A stretch of DNA of 52,423 nt, taken from positions 1 through 52,423 of the forward strand of contig CANQDG010000011.1 of NCBI GenBank assembly GCA_947591495.1, read 5' to 3'. Numbering within the stretch: the first letter of the stretch is position 1; the number at the start of each line of letters is the position of its first letter. This document shows positions 1 to 10,366 of this stretch, piece after piece. The notes beneath the pieces were generated by a model. It was not told the DNA's origin. It was given only the letters and a program-made list of their open reading frames with translations, and did not search any database. The position numbers and the translations under genes were made by a program. The stretch comes from an uncultured Bacilli bacterium (GTDB lineage: Bacteria > Bacillota_I > Bacilli_A > ML615J-28 > CAG-313).

Positions 1-63
1 TATAGCTTCTCCTAGTGGAGCATTACAACATTTACATCTTCTTATTTCGATTGATTGATTCAT
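1..63 (-). CDS. Partial CDS, Cys-rich N-terminus (runs off the window)
   Basis: Only the first 21 codons are in the window. The product begins MNQSIEIRRCKCCNAPLGEA and has a C-x-C-C cluster that could start a zinc ribbon. The ATG is preceded by AGGAG, which overlaps the TAG stop of the AAA ATPase gene upstream, so it is very probably translated as the fifth gene of the SPFH/ESCRT-like operon. Zinc-ribbon proteins are common companions of SPFH and PspA genes, which fits, but the fragment is too short to assign a function. Confidence 0.6.
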   Translation of the reverse strand, partial: MNQSIEIRRCKCCNAPLGEAI

Positions 64-75
64 ATTATTAATCTC

Positions 76-1221
76 CTATATTAGTTCTTTTTGAAATTCT
101 TCTAATTTTCTTATATCACTTAATTGAACGCTTGAGTGAACTTTTTCTAATGCATAATCAATATCGTCTTGGGTAATATATTCATTATCTATACTACCTT
201 TTTCAATGCCTCTTTCAATTGGCATATTTTTACAAACTTCACATAATTCAACTATATCTGAACCATTATATCCTTCGGTTTTTTCTATTAGGACATTAAT
301 ATCGATATCATCAGCAAGCGGTACATTTTCTAAATTTTTTTCAAATAAAAATTTTCTAGCTTTTTCATCAGGTAATGGTATATATAATCTTTCATCAAAT
401 CTACCTGGTCTCATTAAAGCTGAATCAATATTCCAAGGAATATTAGTTGCCGCAATTACTAAGAGGTTATTATTATTATCATTGAATCCTTGTAGTTGTG
501 CTAATAGTTCTGGCACTATTCGATTAGTGGCAGATTCACTACCTGTTCGTTTAGTACCAATAGCTTCAAATTCATCAAAGAAAATAACGGCAGCTTTTTC
601 TTTTCGTGCGGTATCAAATAAGTTGCGAATATTTTTTTCTGATTCGCCAAACCATTTACTGACAACATCACTACATTTTACTTCAAAAAAGGTGGCACCG
701 ACTTCTGCAGCTATGGCTTTTGCCATCATGGTCTTTCCTGTACCTGGCAATCCATACATTAGAATACCTCCACCAACTTTTTTATTAAAACGTTCATAAT
801 AATCAGGATGTAGTTTAGGGTAAATAACTTTTCGTTTAACTGCTAATTTAACATCTTCCATGCCAGCAATATCATTAAATGTTACATTAGGAATTTGAGC
901 TGAAAACCACTCAGTTTCGGTAGAATCTTTGGTTTTTGTATCTTTCGTACGATTAATCATATTGCTTTTAGAATTAGAGTTATTAGACTCTATTTCGCTT
1001 TGTTCATCTAACTTTTCAACATATTCTAAAAGTTTTAAAACCCTTTCTTGTCTAACTTTTTTGAGTTCACCTGTTGAAAGATCGGCAAGTTTTTTTAAGG
1101 TTTCGGCCGCCATAAGCAATTGACGCCTTGCTTCTTTGAGGTTACCTGCGTCTTTGGCGGCAAGACCTTTTTCGTAATAGGTGTTAAAAGCTTTGTATAA
1201 TAAATCACCTTGATTGTTCAT
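76..1221 (-). CDS. Vps4-like AAA ATPase with N-terminal MIT domain
   Basis: 381 residues. Residues 1-75 form a three-helix segment with the MIT pattern (KDAGNLKEARRQLLMAAETL). A Ser/Asn/Thr-rich linker follows to about 105, then one AAA module: Walker A GLPGTGKT (157-164), pore loop SKWFGESE (188-195), Walker B VIFFDE (212-217), sensor-1 AATN (257-260), arginine fingers in RPGRFD (271-275). The K-W-F-G-E-S-E pore loop is the signature of the meiotic clade (Vps4, katanin, spastin). The C-terminus (about 360-380) resembles the Vps4 C-terminal helix; the Vps4 beta-domain insertion is absent. In eukaryotes and archaea such enzymes disassemble ESCRT-III polymers. The next gene upstream encodes a protein ending in a MIM1-like motif, the ligand class of MIT domains. 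AGGTG ribosome-binding site. The AAA call is certain; the Vps4-type role is inferred. Confidence 0.9.
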   Translation of the reverse strand: MNNQGDLLYKAFNTYYEKGLAAKDAGNLKEARRQLLMAAETLKKLADLSTGELKKVRQERVLKLLEYVEKLDEQSEIESNNSNSKSNMINRTKDTKTKDSTETEWFSAQIPNVTFNDIAGMEDVKLAVKRKVIYPKLHPDYYERFNKKVGGGILMYGLPGTGKTMMAKAIAAEVGATFFEVKCSDVVSKWFGESEKNIRNLFDTARKEKAAVIFFDEFEAIGTKRTGSESATNRIVPELLAQLQGFNDNNNNLLVIAATNIPWNIDSALMRPGRFDERLYIPLPDEKARKFLFEKNLENVPLADDIDINVLIEKTEGYNGSDIVELCEVCKNMPIERGIEKGSIDNEYITQDDIDYALEKVHSSVQLSDIRKLEEFQKELI

Positions 1222-1238
1222 AATATCACCTATTCAAT

Positions 1239-1811
1239 TTACTTAAGTTGATTCAATTTCTTTTCAATTAAATCGTCATATGATGATTCTTGATCTGCAT
1301 TTGGGCTAGAATTGATGATTGAATCGACTTCAGCATTAACATCATCTGGCAATTCTACATCAAAAGCATTAAAAGCACTTTCACTAAACTCCATCATTTC
1401 ATTTAACATATTTGATTGAGAGTTTACTTGGGCAAAAGCCTTTGTCATTTTTTTATTAACTTTAGAAGGATTAGTACCTTTACTAAATTTAAAAATATCA
1501 TCACATGCATCTTCGGTTAAGGATAAAAAATCTTTTGTTAATTCGGTAATATCACTCATTGAAGACATTACATCTAACTGAATAATCATTTGTTCAGCAC
1601 GATGTTTAGTTGATAATGCGCTAGCAAGACCAACTTTAGCAATCTTTAAAGAACTTTCGCTTTTCTTTTCTTTGGCAATTCGTGCTTTAGCTGAAAGATC
1701 ATTAATTTTAATGTCTACTTTTTCCACAATTTCATTTAATCTTTGAATTGTTTGATTAAATTTAACTTTACGATCGACTTCATTTACTTCATTATTTACT
1801 CGTTTCTTCAT
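1239..1811 (-). CDS. ESCRT-III-like (Snf7/CHMP1-type) helical protein with C-terminal MIM1-like motif
   Basis: 190 residues, almost entirely predicted helix, no signal or membrane segment. Basic start MKKRVNNEV, long amphipathic helices to about residue 155, an acidic flexible stretch (155-178), and a last helix ending exactly at the C-terminus: DDLIEKKLNQLK (179-190). That end fits the MIM1 pattern (D/E)xxLxxRLxxL(K/R) with conservative I for L and K for R. Size, helix order, acidic linker and terminal MIM copy the layout of CHMP1/Did2. Bacterial PspA/Vipp1 are established ESCRT-III superfamily members, but this protein is not an obvious PspA. It overlaps the upstream gene by 20 bp and sits 17 bp before the MIT-AAA gene. 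GAGGAAG ribosome-binding site. The alternative is an unrelated coiled coil. Confidence 0.65.
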   Translation of the reverse strand: MKKRVNNEVNEVDRKVKFNQTIQRLNEIVEKVDIKINDLSAKARIAKEKKSESSLKIAKVGLASALSTKHRAEQMIIQLDVMSSMSDITELTKDFLSLTEDACDDIFKFSKGTNPSKVNKKMTKAFAQVNSQSNMLNEMMEFSESAFNAFDVELPDDVNAEVDSIINSSPNADQESSYDDLIEKKLNQLK

Positions 1812-2802
1812 CTTTTACTTCCTCACTTTGATTTTTATTATTTATTTGATTTAATTGAGAATCCATCTTTGCTTGTTTTCGTCTTTCATGTTCAATTTGA
1901 GCAGCAGATGGTTCTTTGGCTTTTTGTTTACTTTGTAATTCTTTATTTTCTTCTTTATAAACATCTTTAATACGTTTAAATTCTTTATCTTCATTAATAC
2001 GTTGTTTTTTCAACTCAAGTGTTTCACTAACAACCTTTTTAAAAACATCATTAAATTTATCTTCAGCATATTGGTTGTTTCTAATAAACTTTTCAATATT
2101 TAAATCACCAAAACGATTTAAAAGTTCTTTATGATTAGTTATTTTACTTCTAACAGCGCGCTCTTGATCTTCATAAGTTGCTATTTTTTCATCTATTTCA
2201 TTGATTTCAGCCTCATATGATTCACCATTTTCTTCGTCAGCATCCCATTTTTCATGAATCAATTCTTTTAATTGGATTTCAGCTTGTTTTCGATAAAAAA
2301 TTTGTAATCGTTCCAATTCAAAAGTAATTAAAGTAGAATCTATTTCCCATTCTGTTTTAGCTGCTTCGGCTTTTCTTGCAACTTCTTTTGAATCTTCTTT
2401 GAAAATTGAACTATTTTGTTTAGTAAATAGATTGGCTCTTTCACAAAACATTCGATTAAGAATAGTCATAACTTTGTTAAACATATCCTTGTTAGCTTTT
2501 TGATATTGTTCGGCTCTTATACTATTTTCATCGTTTTTATGGCCTAAGATATTGCTTTGATGTAATGAACTTTCACGATATTTATCCATGATTAATTTGA
2601 TTTTTTCATCTAAAATGATAGCTTCAGGATTATCACAAGGCTCTAAAATAGCAATATTTCTTTTAATTTCTCTAAAATCATTTTTTAGTTCTTCTTCTTG
2701 TGTTCTTCTTATTAATTCATCAAAATAATTTTCTAAACTTTGTTTAGAGTCTTTAACTTGGATGGCAATTTTTTCATTATTTTTTTTCTTTTTAAATAAC
2801 AT
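1792..2802 (-). CDS. Helical/coiled-coil protein with basic N-terminus, ESCRT-like operon component
   Basis: 336 residues from the ATG with an AAGGAG site 7 nt upstream; a longer reading frame exists but lacks a site. The first nine residues MLFKKKKNN are hydrophobic then strongly basic, a pattern that can bind acidic membranes. The rest is charged helix, with strong heptad character around 170-310 and a Lys/Glu/Gln-rich tail. No cysteine cluster, catalytic motif or membrane span. The gene starts 11 bp after the SPFH gene and overlaps the ESCRT-III-like gene by 20 bp, so it is translationally coupled to that unit. I do not recognise the family. It may be a second polymer subunit or an adaptor, but that is inferred from position only. 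Confidence 0.75.
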   Translation of the reverse strand: MLFKKKKNNEKIAIQVKDSKQSLENYFDELIRRTQEEELKNDFREIKRNIAILEPCDNPEAIILDEKIKLIMDKYRESSLHQSNILGHKNDENSIRAEQYQKANKDMFNKVMTILNRMFCERANLFTKQNSSIFKEDSKEVARKAEAAKTEWEIDSTLITFELERLQIFYRKQAEIQLKELIHEKWDADEENGESYEAEINEIDEKIATYEDQERAVRSKITNHKELLNRFGDLNIEKFIRNNQYAEDKFNDVFKKVVSETLELKKQRINEDKEFKRIKDVYKEENKELQSKQKAKEPSAAQIEHERRKQAKMDSQLNQINNKNQSEEVKDEETSK

Positions 2803-2813
2803 CTTTTTTCTCC

Positions 2814-3695
2814 TTATCGATTTTGAGTACTTCCACAATTAGGGCAGAAGCGATCATCTAATTTTAATTGTTCCCCACAATTAGGACAGAATTTATAATT
2901 TTTTCTTTTTTCGCCTTCAGTGGTTGATGGTTGAGGTGCAACATTATTAACTGATTGGCCTTTCGCAAGTTCATTAATAACTTTTACTTCATTCATAGCT
3001 TGATGAGCTTTTTCATCAGAGCATTTACTATCAATTTTAGCTTCTTCTAAACTTATAGTTTTCTTATCAAGTAGTTCAAAGCCTTCAACGGTTATTTCTA
3101 AAACAGTTGTATCATCACATATTAATCCATATAGTTCACCAAATGAGTTCTCAAATTTATTGCTAATTAATTTAGCAACTTCACTGTTTGATGCTTGGAT
3201 TGCAAAACGATTCTTTTTTTGCATAGCTATTTCAGTTAATGCTTCAGCACAAATTGTACAAAGATATTTCTTAATTATTTCATTAAGTTTTTCTTCGGTA
3301 AAATCTTCTTTTTCATCTAGAGCATCATAAAGTCTTTGAGGGTTTTCAATTCTAACACGACTTATACCATAACATTTGGCTTGTAAAACTACGCCGTATT
3401 CTTCATCTTTATAATCAGGATTTTTAATTGTTCCCCATTTAAGTTCAATTACTTTGTTAGTATTAACCCCGTAAACTTCAAAATTTTTATTATCTTTTTT
3501 CGTGAATAGTTTTTCAAAAAAACCTTTTTGATTAATCACTTCGGTTTGACCAGGTAAGACTGTTTTATAAACAGCGCCATTGTGAATAAATAAAACATGA
3601 ACACCACCTTCAGCTGTTACCTTAGTATTAGCTTTAATTTCAAAATCTTCTTTCCAGATAAGTTTATCTTTGTTTGCTTTAACTCTTAATTCCAT
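2814..3695 (-). CDS. SPFH-domain protein with C-terminal zinc ribbon (YdjI/virion-core type)
   Basis: 293 residues. Residues about 25-225 match the bacterial SPFH 'virion core' family to which Bacillus YdjI belongs: FIHNGAVYKTVLPGQTEV, then VNTNKVIELKWGT, then the conserved YGVVLQAKCYG region. After a linker, a zinc ribbon at the C-terminus has Cys270, 273, 284 and 287 in two CPNCG knuckles. SPFH proteins form membrane-attached scaffolds, and YdjI recruits the ESCRT-III homologue PspA in Bacillus, so its place as first gene of this operon is telling. The ATG at 3695 has GGAGG at good spacing; the ATG 12 nt upstream lies inside that site and is rejected. A strong promoter lies 52-80 nt upstream. 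Confidence 0.88.
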   Translation of the reverse strand: MELRVKANKDKLIWKEDFEIKANTKVTAEGGVHVLFIHNGAVYKTVLPGQTEVINQKGFFEKLFTKKDNKNFEVYGVNTNKVIELKWGTIKNPDYKDEEYGVVLQAKCYGISRVRIENPQRLYDALDEKEDFTEEKLNEIIKKYLCTICAEALTEIAMQKKNRFAIQASNSEVAKLISNKFENSFGELYGLICDDTTVLEITVEGFELLDKKTISLEEAKIDSKCSDEKAHQAMNEVKVINELAKGQSVNNVAPQPSTTEGEKRKNYKFCPNCGEQLKLDDRFCPNCGSTQNR

Positions 3696-3746
3696 AATAA
3701 CCTCCATTTAATTTTAAAATAATTTAGAGCTTTTATATATAATTTT

Positions 3747-3775
3747 ATTATATAATATTTGTCGAAAAAAAGCAA
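3747..3775 (-). promoter_or_regulatory. Sigma-A promoter of the SPFH/ESCRT-like operon
   Basis: TTGCTT, 17-nt spacer, TATAAT on the minus strand. The predicted start near 3740 gives a leader of about 45 nt before the ATG at 3695. No other promoter is evident within the five-gene run. Confidence 0.7.
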
Positions 3776-3981: not shown

Positions 3982-4182
3982 CTATTTACCTTGTAAATTT
4001 GATTGAGCCATAGATACTAAACGACGAGTGATTTCACCACCAACTGAACCGTTTTGACGAGCTGTTGCATCTGGGCCAAGGTTAACTCCTAATTCATTTG
4101 CAATTTCATATTTCATTTGATTGATTGCATTTTCAGAACCAGGTACTACTAATCTATTTTTAGAGTAAGATGAGTTATTCAT
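3982..4182 (-). CDS. Alpha/beta-type small acid-soluble spore protein (SASP)
   Basis: 66 residues. It has both conserved family blocks: [13 protein letters not shown], which contains the GPR protease cleavage site, and the DNA-binding block [17 protein letters not shown]. These proteins coat spore DNA, protect it from UV and chemical damage, and are degraded at germination for amino acids. Start chosen at 4182 because AGGAGGTG lies 6 nt upstream; a longer frame starts inside that region. It is monocistronic with its own terminator. SASPs are forespore products (sigma-G in Bacillus), but I could not find a convincing sigma-G promoter. It is the best evidence in the window that the organism sporulates. 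Confidence 0.95.
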
Positions 4183-4255
4183 TATTTCACCTCCTGTCAA
4201 AAATAGTATTAACCATTTATAATCATTTATAACAAAATTTTATTGGTAATTTATG

Positions 4256-7797: not shown

Positions 7798-8626
7798 AAC
7801 GATTAGTTAACTTACCAATGATGGCATAAATAATAAAGATAATTAAATTAACTACTACTACACTAGCTCCAAAGGGATAATCGGTTAAAATAAAGAGTGC
7901 TATTAAAAAGGAAGTAACCGAAATAATCGCCGAAGAAAAGATTACATTTCTAAATTTACGGAAAACTTGCATTGATGATAAAGCAGGGAAAATAATAATA
8001 CTTGAAATTAATAAAGTTCCCATAATACGCATACCTATAACAATGGTAATAGCCGTAAGTGAAGCAAATAAAACATTAAAAGCTCTTGTATGAATACCCG
8101 TAGCTTTAGCAAAAGATTCATCGAATGTTACCGCAAAAATTCGGTGATATAAAAGAATAAAGGTGCCAATAACTAAAATAGCTGTAATTAACATAATAAT
8201 AAAGTCTTCTTTATTAGCAAAAACAATACTACCAAACATTAAACTATTAATATCAACAGTAAAACCCCCATGTAAAGTTGAAGCAACGATATAGCCAATG
8301 GCTAGCGCACTTGAGGAAAAAATACCGATTGCCGCATCACTTTTCATTTTTTTACTTTCGCCAATTCTTAATAAAATGTAGGCCGCAAGCACCACAAACG
8401 GAATAACAACTAAAATGGGCGCATTAGTAAAACCAAGACCAATCGATATCGCATATACACCAAAACTAATATGACTTAAGCCATCTCCAATCATCGAATA
8501 TCTTTTTAAGACTAAGACAACCCCTAAAATAGAAGCTGTAATTGATAATAAAATACCAACAAATAATGGATACTTTAAAATATAGAAATTATTAAAGAAA
8601 TTTTGAATAATGCCTTCATTAAACAT
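7787..8626 (-). CDS. znuB: Metal ABC transporter permease (ZnuB/AdcB type)
   Basis: 279 residues with about eight hydrophobic segments and the ABC-3 family pattern: KRYSMIGDGLSHISFG near residue 40 and FDESFAKATGIH in the second half, which is the loop contacting the ATPase. It is the membrane channel of a zinc or manganese importer. I place the start at ATG 8626 (MFNEGIIQNFF) with GGAG 9 nt upstream; an ATG 9 nt earlier and a TTG at 8641 are alternatives. It overlaps the ATPase gene by 8 bp, in the order znuA-znuC-znuB. Confidence 0.92.
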   Translation of the reverse strand: MFNEGIIQNFFNNFYILKYPLFVGILLSITASILGVVLVLKRYSMIGDGLSHISFGVYAISIGLGFTNAPILVVIPFVVLAAYILLRIGESKKMKSDAAIGIFSSSALAIGYIVASTLHGGFTVDINSLMFGSIVFANKEDFIIMLITAILVIGTFILLYHRIFAVTFDESFAKATGIHTRAFNVLFASLTAITIVIGMRIMGTLLISSIIIFPALSSMQVFRKFRNVIFSSAIISVTSFLIALFILTDYPFGASVVVVNLIIFIIYAIIGKLTNRYAR

Positions 8627-9350
8627 CTTGTTCATCTCCAATCTCTAATAATTGATGACGTGATAATAGATATTCTTTTTTCATATGTTTCTTATATTCT
8701 TCCGGGTTGCCACAAAACATACAATCTTGACTTAAATGAATAACTTTATTAGCATGTTTTAATAAGTCTTCCACAAAGTGGGAAACAATAATTAAAGTTA
8801 CATTTAATTCTTTGTTGATTTTATCTAAAACATCATATAATTTTTGGGCTGTAGAGCCATCTAATCCGGTAAATGGTTCATCTAAAATTAAAATCTTATC
8901 GGTTGCACATAAAGCTCTTGCTAGTAAAACCCGTTGTTGTTGACCACCAGAAAGTTCACTAAATGAGCGATATTCCAAATCTTTAATTTCTAAAATATCC
9001 ATCATTTCTTCAACCCGATGTTTTTCTTTCTTGGAAAAAAAGGGGCGAAAACCAATTCGATTTAAACATCCTGATCTTACTACTTCAAAAACAGAAGCCG
9101 GAAAGTCCGAAAGACTTTCATTATGTTGGGGTAGATATCCAATCATTCTTTGGGAAATACCTTTACCAAAATTAATTTCCCCTTTTAATTTAGGAATAAG
9201 GCCTAAAATGGTTTTAACCAAAGTTGATTTACCCGAACCATTATCGCCAAATAAACAAACATAATCTCCGCTTTCTAATTTAAGATTTAAGTCTTTTAAA
9301 ACAGTTCGATTTTCATAACCAATTGAAAGTGCATTACATTCTAAAATCAT
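8619..9350 (-). CDS. znuC: Metal ABC transporter ATP-binding protein (ZnuC/AdcC type)
   Basis: 243 residues. Walker A GDNGSGKST (about 35-43), ABC signature LSGGQQQR, Walker B ILILDEPFTGLDG and the switch histidine in IIVSHFVED, all intact. It powers the importer formed with the neighbouring permease. The ATG overlaps the TGA stop of the binding-protein gene in an ATGA junction, and AAGGAG lies 8 nt upstream. That junction also shows that UGA is used as a stop in this genome. Confidence 0.94.
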   Translation of the reverse strand: MILECNALSIGYENRTVLKDLNLKLESGDYVCLFGDNGSGKSTLVKTILGLIPKLKGEINFGKGISQRMIGYLPQHNESLSDFPASVFEVVRSGCLNRIGFRPFFSKKEKHRVEEMMDILEIKDLEYRSFSELSGGQQQRVLLARALCATDKILILDEPFTGLDGSTAQKLYDVLDKINKELNVTLIIVSHFVEDLLKHANKVIHLSQDCMFCGNPEEYKKHMKKEYLLSRHQLLEIGDEQDV

Positions 9351-10366
9351 TTTTGTTGCTCCTTTTCTAATTGTTCTATTATTTGATTGTCAACCTTTAA
9401 CATTTTAGCAAGATTAACAACGTTTTGCTTCATTATGCTAATAAAAGAAATATTTTCGTTATTAAAATCATTTACACTAACATTGTGACCAGAATGTAAT
9501 TCTAAAATTGTCGCACCTGTATGGTAAGCAATCATTTCACAGGCTTTAATATTAATTAATTCTTTTGAGAAGATATATTTAATATCATTTTGTTTCATTT
9601 TATTGATAATAGCCGTTAAAACCTCAACTGAAGGTTCGGTTTCAGTCGAACAAGTTTTATAAATTAATTCATAATCTAAACCATACCAATAAGCTATATA
9701 ATAAAAAGCAAATGGTGAACCAAAATACATCGTTTTATTTTTAGCATTTGCGACAATTAATTTAAGATTTTGATCAATTAAAGCAAGTTCTTGTAAATAT
9801 ATATCACGATTAGTTTCTAAAACTCCTTTAATATTATTATAAGGGTCTTTTAAATTATCGATAATAGCATCACAAATTTCGATAACCATTTCTTGAGCAT
9901 ATTTAGGATATAACCAATAATGAGGATCATACGAATGAACATGGGTATGTTCATGACTTGGTTCATTTTCTTCTTCGCCATCATCATCTTCAACTTTTAA
10001 AAGTTCAATATTTTCACTTTTAGATAAATTAACAACCGCCGTTTTACTCGTAAAAGTAATACCACTAACCCACGTTTCCATTTCATCGGCTGTATAGATA
10101 AAAATATCAGCATTTTTGATGGTAATAATATCATTAACGCTTGGATCATAGGTATGTGAATCTTGTCCTGGTTTAACAATCATGACAACGTCAAATAAAC
10201 CTTGGGTTTCTTTATTATTCCCAATGATTTTTTTGATCATATCATATTCAGGATAAAGCGTTGTAACTATTAATTTTTTGGTAGTTGATGGTCTTACCAG
10301 ACTACAACTGCTAACTAATAGTAACATTATCAAAACGATTGATGTTAGGATGATGTGCTTTTTCAT
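9347..10366 (-). CDS. znuA: Zinc-binding lipoprotein of the metal ABC transporter (ZnuA/AdcA type)
   Basis: 339 residues. Signal peptide with lipobox LLVSSCS (Cys21), so it is anchored outside the membrane after Lgt action; lgt is in this window at 30.5 kb. The cluster A-1 fold is shown by TLYPEYDMIKKIIG and PGQDSHTYDPS near 80. A mobile His/Glu-rich loop (EDDDGEEENEPSHEHTHVHS, about 125-144) is typical of zinc rather than manganese binders, and conserved metal ligands follow in DPHYWLYP. GGGAG ribosome-binding site. First gene of a znuA-znuC-znuB unit. I see no recognisable Zur box in the 48 bp upstream, so its promoter may be further up. Confidence 0.93.
   Translation of the reverse strand: MKKHIILTSIVLIMLLLVSSCSLVRPSTTKKLIVTTLYPEYDMIKKIIGNNKETQGLFDVVMIVKPGQDSHTYDPSVNDIITIKNADIFIYTADEMETWVSGITFTSKTAVVNLSKSENIELLKVEDDDGEEENEPSHEHTHVHSYDPHYWLYPKYAQEMVIEICDAIIDNLKDPYNNIKGVLETNRDIYLQELALIDQNLKLIVANAKNKTMYFGSPFAFYYIAYWYGLDYELIYKTCSTETEPSVEVLTAIINKMKQNDIKYIFSKELINIKACEMIAYHTGATILELHSGHNVSVNDFNNENISFISIMKQNVVNLAKMLKVDNQIIEQLEKEQQK

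Follow-up and report, generated by a model that had tools for sequence, protein, structure and literature searches.

The ESCRT-III/Vps4 machine cuts and repairs membranes in our own cells and in archaea. Here we describe an operon at the start of contig CANQDG010000011.1 of an uncultured Bacilli bacterium (assembly GCA_947591495.1; the whole stretch of 52,423 nucleotides is referred to as the window), which likely encodes a bacterial membrane-remodelling module of the ESCRT-III/Vps4 type. According to a 2024 census of ESCRT systems, bacteria are without ESCRT-III/Vps4 (Makarova et al. 2024). Several archaeal ESCRT loci include a Ser/Thr kinase and a phosphatase (Makarova et al. 2024), and those of the Meth_adaptin clade carry a protein combining an SPFH domain with a zinc ribbon (PMC10936438). 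From bacteria, Vps4-like genes have been reported in which a TPR-6TM gene takes the place of snf7 (Ravi et al. 2024, PMC11237479), as well as pairings of PspA, or of Snf7 homologues bearing transmembrane segments, with other AAA ATPases (PMC11237479). In Bacillus subtilis, recruitment of PspA to the membrane requires YdjI (PMC8581546). We found no published description of the present operon in the open-licence literature; a prior description elsewhere is possible.

The operon occupies positions 1-3695 of the window on the minus strand and comprises four whole genes and a fifth that is cut at the contig end. They encode an SPFH-zinc ribbon protein, a basic-headed coiled-coil protein, an ESCRT-III-like helical protein, an AAA ATPase with an N-terminal MIT domain, and a Cys-rich protein (Table 1). 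The order of the first four is repeated in about 15 other loci of Bacilli and Clostridia, and the gene set is therefore not a chance arrangement. Nearly all relatives have an SPFH homologue upstream, and in some loci a zinc-ribbon gene lies ahead of the ATPase gene.

With the archaeal ESCRT loci (CdvB/CdvC; Meth_adaptin, Main and Halo_FHA clades; Makarova et al. 2024) the operon shares a MIT-AAA gene with an ESCRT-III gene upstream, and with the Meth_adaptin loci also the SPFH-zinc ribbon partner (PMC10936438). Unlike them, the system has a bacterial host, a TIR-zinc-ribbon partner and an AAA protein in a clade of its own, and none of the archaeal wH, CdvA and adaptin-appendage genes was seen in it. 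The B. subtilis PspA-YdjGHI system likewise pairs an SPFH-zinc-finger protein with a member of the ESCRT-III superfamily, but is without a MIT-type AAA motor, and the PspA/IM30 model PF04012 matched neither the helical protein nor any other protein of our operon. The Vps4-like genes of Ravi et al. 2024 are also bacterial; here, however, an ESCRT-III-like gene whose product ends in a tail resembling a MIT-interacting motif (MIM) is kept beside the ATPase gene. Eukaryotic ESCRT-III (CHMP1B, CHMP2A, CHMP3) and Vps4 have in common with the system the helix layout, the C-terminal MIM1 and the succession of MIT, AAA and a C-terminal helix (predicted in our ATPase), whereas the system differs in having one ESCRT-III gene in most loci, an AAA core nearer to Cdc48 D2 and a full-length profile identity of about 12% between the helical family and CHMP.

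The kinship of the helical protein was assessed by structure prediction and by profile comparison. An AlphaFold2 model built on a 12-member alignment contains helices at residues 2-48, 52-109, 115-149, 157-167 and 177-189 (predicted local distance difference test, pLDDT, 75.7), which in the model is the ESCRT-III layout of an alpha1-alpha2 hairpin and alpha3-alpha5 with a C-terminal MIM helix. The hairpin reached pLDDT values of 81-91; the overall predicted template modelling score was moderate (0.58) and the last helix was of low confidence. When the model was compared to the PDB with Foldseek, the ESCRT-III superfamily crowded the top ranks, with S. islandicus CdvB in first and second place, and CHMP1B, IST1-CHMP1B, Vipp1, Loki CHMP4-7, CHMP2A-CHMP3 and Asgard ESCRT-IIIB further down amid unrelated helical proteins. 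Using hhalign, the helical family aligned with a profile of four human CHMP sequences (checked against PDB chains) over 193 columns with a probability of 71% (P=4.8e-6), compared to 0.8% for the reversed profile and 1.7% and 0.2% for the coiled-coil families of the operon. An enlarged helical profile scored 35.9 against CHMP, while 100 heptad-block shuffles reached at most 19.2. The family member nearest to Pfam Snf7 (6.1e-6, residues 11-155, 26.4 bits, cut-off 27.3) is a second ESCRT-III-like paralogue, located across the MIT-AAA gene in a relative (L029:2853-3461, minus strand). In a genome search with the Snf7 model, Sulfolobus acidocaldarius was the sole matching control and likewise stayed below the cut-off.

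The C-terminal tail of the window protein, DDLIEKKLNQLK, fits the pattern [DE]xx[LIVM]xx[RK][LM]xx[LI][KR] exactly, and a MIM1-type pattern occurs within the last 20 residues in 1.6e-4 of shuffles. Most relatives have a degenerate version in which the spacing of the hydrophobic residues is kept; a stand-alone helical copy from a locus without ATPase (L028) does not match the pattern. The candidate binding partner of this tail, the N-terminus of the ATPase, was modelled by AlphaFold2 as three helices (2-24, 28-48 and 52-81, mostly pLDDT 86-92), after which comes a disordered linker. The Pfam MIT model (PF04212) was matched by 7 of the 13 ATPase family members (best 3.4e-5); as a caution, the MIT profile found a 25-residue match in designed TPRs as well.

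In the remainder of the ATPase, the Walker A and B motifs, Arg finger and pore loop are intact, and the motif columns are invariant or near-invariant among nine relatives. The NCBIfam CdvC model matched residues 13-377, and for the ATPase of L022 it was the best model, end to end. The Vps4_C model (PF09336) reached E=9e-4 and 19.6 bits (cut-off 21.3), and a helix was modelled at residues 367-380 (overall pLDDT 80). The protein possesses a MIT domain and its gene adjoins an ESCRT-III-like gene, either of which counts towards a Vps4 in the scheme of Makarova et al. 2024.

A number of observations weigh against the reading as an ESCRT-III/Vps4 module. The window's helical protein alone, a divergent copy, was matched by neither Pfam nor ESCRT-III models, no Foldseek hit in the PDB fell below 1e-3 (best E=0.11), and some relatives show the loose MIM pattern only. 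The AAA core is nearest to Cdc48/p97 D2 by sequence and by structure, and two trees place the bacterial MIT-AAAs in a group of their own beside Vps4/spastin and Cdc48. In addition, a profile-versus-PDB sequence search with the helical family returned no ESCRT-III match. Since the window protein alone misses significance, ESCRT-III membership is a family-level result. Nearness to Cdc48 D2 is compatible with Vps4, since the CDC48 model also gives yeast Vps4 a higher score than the CdvC model does. Neither tree settled whether the ATPases nest in the Vps4 clade; the trees contained no archaeal CdvC sequence, did not fix the root among Vps4/spastin, Cdc48 and the bacterial group, and in one case joined the bacterial group with a long-branch haloarchaeal AAA, a join that is suspect. 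Of the ESCRT-III/Vps4-like operon proposed in the initial annotation, the MIT-AAA architecture of the ATPase stands, whereas its membership in the Vps4 clade found no support. The same observations could be explained by a convergent look-alike, in which a Cdc48-type AAA with an alpha-helical, MIT- or TPR-like N-domain acts on an unrelated coiled-coil polymer, all the more as long helical hairpins resemble many folds weakly and the MIT profile also fits TPRs. We regard this as unlikely in view of the MIT matches across the ATPase family, the similar preference of yeast Vps4 for the CDC48 model, and the score of the helical profile against CHMPs, which lies far above the reversed, block-shuffled and sister coiled-coil controls.

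The SPFH protein is of the YdjI type, with a C-terminal zinc finger and its gene beside an ESCRT-III superfamily gene. The 336-residue protein corresponds in operon position and N-terminus to the coiled-coil gene (192-335 aa) of the relatives, and aligned weakly (18-28%) with the same-position proteins of L029 and L030. In the profile comparisons, the short-form coiled-coil family gave a weak hint (A9 vs A7, P=3.4e-4) and the 336-residue family of the window none; we do not claim this second coiled-coil gene as ESCRT-III. Taken together, the SPFH scaffold, the ESCRT-III-like helical protein with its MIM-like C-terminus, the MIT domain and the conserved operon order had all been proposed, or named as points to check, in the initial annotation and were recovered here. 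This includes the hairpin fold, the MIT bundle and the conserved order, the lack of which it had named as grounds for abandoning its proposal.

Table 1 Features of the operon and its upstream neighbour in the window
Feature	Position	Strand	Basis or remark
SPFH (Band_7_1) protein with C-terminal zinc ribbon, 293 aa	2814..3695	-	PF13421 E=1.8e-14, Zn_Ribbon_1 7.3e-9
Basic-headed (MLFKKKK) coiled-coil protein, 336 aa	1792..2802	-	no Pfam match
ESCRT-III-like helical protein, 190 aa	1239..1811	-	AlphaFold2 helix layout, family profile vs CHMP
MIM1-type motif DDLIEKKLNQLK, residues 179-190 of helical protein	1242..1277	-	exact pattern match
MIT-AAA ATPase (Vps4/CdvC architecture), 381 aa	76..1221	-	PF00004 2e-43, AAA_lid_3 9e-8
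Predicted MIT three-helix bundle of ATPase, residues 2-81	979..1218	-	AlphaFold2
Walker A, GLPGTGKT	730..753	-	sequence; pore loop KWFG and Walker B VIFFDE after
Cys-rich (CxxC) gene, start	1..63	-	start at 63 (MNQSIEIRRCKCCNAPLGEAI); cut by contig end
Small acid-soluble spore protein (SASP) gene, alpha/beta type	3982-4185	-	directly upstream of operon

The genes are separated by gaps of 11, 17 and 12 bp and one 20-bp overlap, and because of this spacing a single promoter is plausible. The initial annotation had placed five minus-strand genes behind one promoter: all reading frames are present, whereas the promoter could not be confirmed, promoter-like sites being no commoner than in shuffled sequence. 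The operon is incomplete within the window, as another zinc-ribbon gene follows, which is cut because the contig begins at base 1 and which usually bears a TIR domain in relatives. Three TIR matches were present in the window's own genome, none of them where the contig-end continuation of the fifth gene would lie. Judging from the SASP gene, which has its own terminator-like hairpin at 3978-3945, the host is a spore former, as had been assumed.

The gene that follows the helical or the ATPase gene in the relatives codes for a protein with two N-terminal CxxC pairs, often together with TPR and membrane segments. In nine scanned loci, this zinc-ribbon protein contains a TIR_2 domain; the Glu at the catalytic WxxxEW position is present in eight of them, and an aligned Glu with a looser match in the ninth. 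No TIR match was found in the relatives L022, L029 and L059. Individual loci contain further genes. A BrxL (BREX Lon-like) gene lies between the MIT-AAA and TIR genes of L023 (5528-6952, minus strand), and a similar-looking gene, assigned by look alone, occupies the BrxL position of L048 (10052-11491, plus strand). In L022 (1108-12086) and L024 (2240-12100), the operon is located amid vWA, PP2C and Ser/Thr kinase genes, a TerY-P-like set (Pfam on one). A haloarchaeal plasmid (Halarchaeum, L062:5364-8242) carries a MIT-AAA gene beside two coiled-coil genes, kinases and PP2C, which recalls the archaeal ESCRT loci that include a kinase and a phosphatase (Makarova et al. 2024).

These neighbours raise the credible, if unproven, possibility of an anti-phage, abortive-infection-like system, in which the polymer or the ATPase would sense or localise to phage membrane injury and activate the TIR protein, leading to depletion of NAD+ or another halt. 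The retained TIR Glu, the BrxL gene inside one operon, the Ser/Thr kinase, PP2C and vWA genes flanking two others and the patchy distribution of the operon would be in line with such a function. However, neither the SPFH nor the coiled-coil nor the helical proteins matched anything in the defence library, several loci have housekeeping genes around them instead of lying in clear defence islands, and TIR-type neighbours occur in relatives only, the downstream gene of the window being cut.

The distribution of the operon bears on its role. An ATPase pattern scan of named genomes found no close relatives. When the window's genome and its relatives were searched for the helical gene, it turned up only in this genome and in two other Bacilli, both with genes for SPFH-zinc ribbon, small helical, coiled-coil, helical and MIT-AAA proteins, and was absent from all genomes searched of the same genus (0/4) and the same family (0/10). 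Searching 395 Bacilli genomes with the helical profile yielded 13 matches, 10 convincing and 3 marginal and partial; at the level of the phylum 10 of 392 genomes matched (a set overlapping the Bacilli set), and in the class of Candidatus Coproplasma 4 of 391. This corresponds to about 2-3% of sampled Bacilli and 1% of Clostridia. Among the named hosts are Inordinaticella fortuita 4B, a Haloplasmataceae metagenome-assembled genome (MAG) and two Candidatus Coproplasma MAGs. The exception to the gene order is L028, where neither SPFH nor MIT-AAA lies within 15 kb. In that locus (8171-10042, plus strand), one fusion protein joins an ESCRT-III-like N-terminal domain to an FtsK/SpoIIIE DNA-translocase motor (PF01580 1.2e-43), and its gene adjoins a second ESCRT-III-like gene and a gene for a TIR-LRR protein.

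Because the helical gene is missing from the 14 genomes of near kin that were searched, we consider it highly improbable that the operon encodes a core machine for cell division or sporulation engulfment, both of which had been raised in the initial annotation, even though archaeal Cdv divides cells with the same two core parts and a SASP gene adjoins the operon in a spore-forming host. An envelope-stress or membrane-repair system that functionally replaces PspA-YdjI and has no immune role is a tentative alternative. The SPFH-zinc ribbon partner has the architecture of YdjI, which brings PspA to the membrane, and PspA (PF04012) was found in none of the host genomes. However, PspA is missing from most genomes of the class anyway, with a match in 11 of 296, and is also absent from sister species without the operon. 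Since PspA is rare across the class, its absence from the hosts is uninformative, and we dropped PspA replacement as evidence; moreover, it leaves the TIR domains unexplained. Both the anti-phage and the envelope-stress explanation share the core module with the one that we prefer and differ from it in role. The TIR, kinase and BrxL contexts and the patchy distribution fit better with an accessory response than with core division, and the most likely role of the module is an accessory one, in responding to damage of the envelope or to attack by phages.

In the mechanism that we propose for this ESCRT-III/Vps4-type module, the SPFH-zinc ribbon protein would form a scaffold at the membrane's inner face, recruiting the basic-headed coiled-coil and ESCRT-III-like proteins, the latter of which would polymerise on the membrane. 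The MIT domain of the ATPase may dock on the MIM1-like C-terminal helix, allowing the hexamer to extract subunits, by which the polymer would be remodelled and recycled. Through the zinc-ribbon protein encoded next to it, which in relatives usually bears a TIR domain, the module might be linked to signalling or an effector.

That the operon represents a genuine, long-diversified bacterial ESCRT-III/Vps4 system wired to TIR signalling, and as such a membrane-remodelling innate immune module, is in our estimate almost an even prospect. If true, the Vps4/ESCRT-III pair would not be confined to archaea and eukaryotes. A conserved bacterial operon with polymer and motor, a MIM-type tail and an SPFH partner of the kind found in PspA-YdjI and in archaeal ESCRT loci bears on the age of the polymer-motor pairing. 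The link to TIR points to a possible arm of bacterial immunity directed at membrane damage. Overall, this small system, including that of Inordinaticella fortuita 4B, may offer a setting in which to study ESCRT-III turnover.

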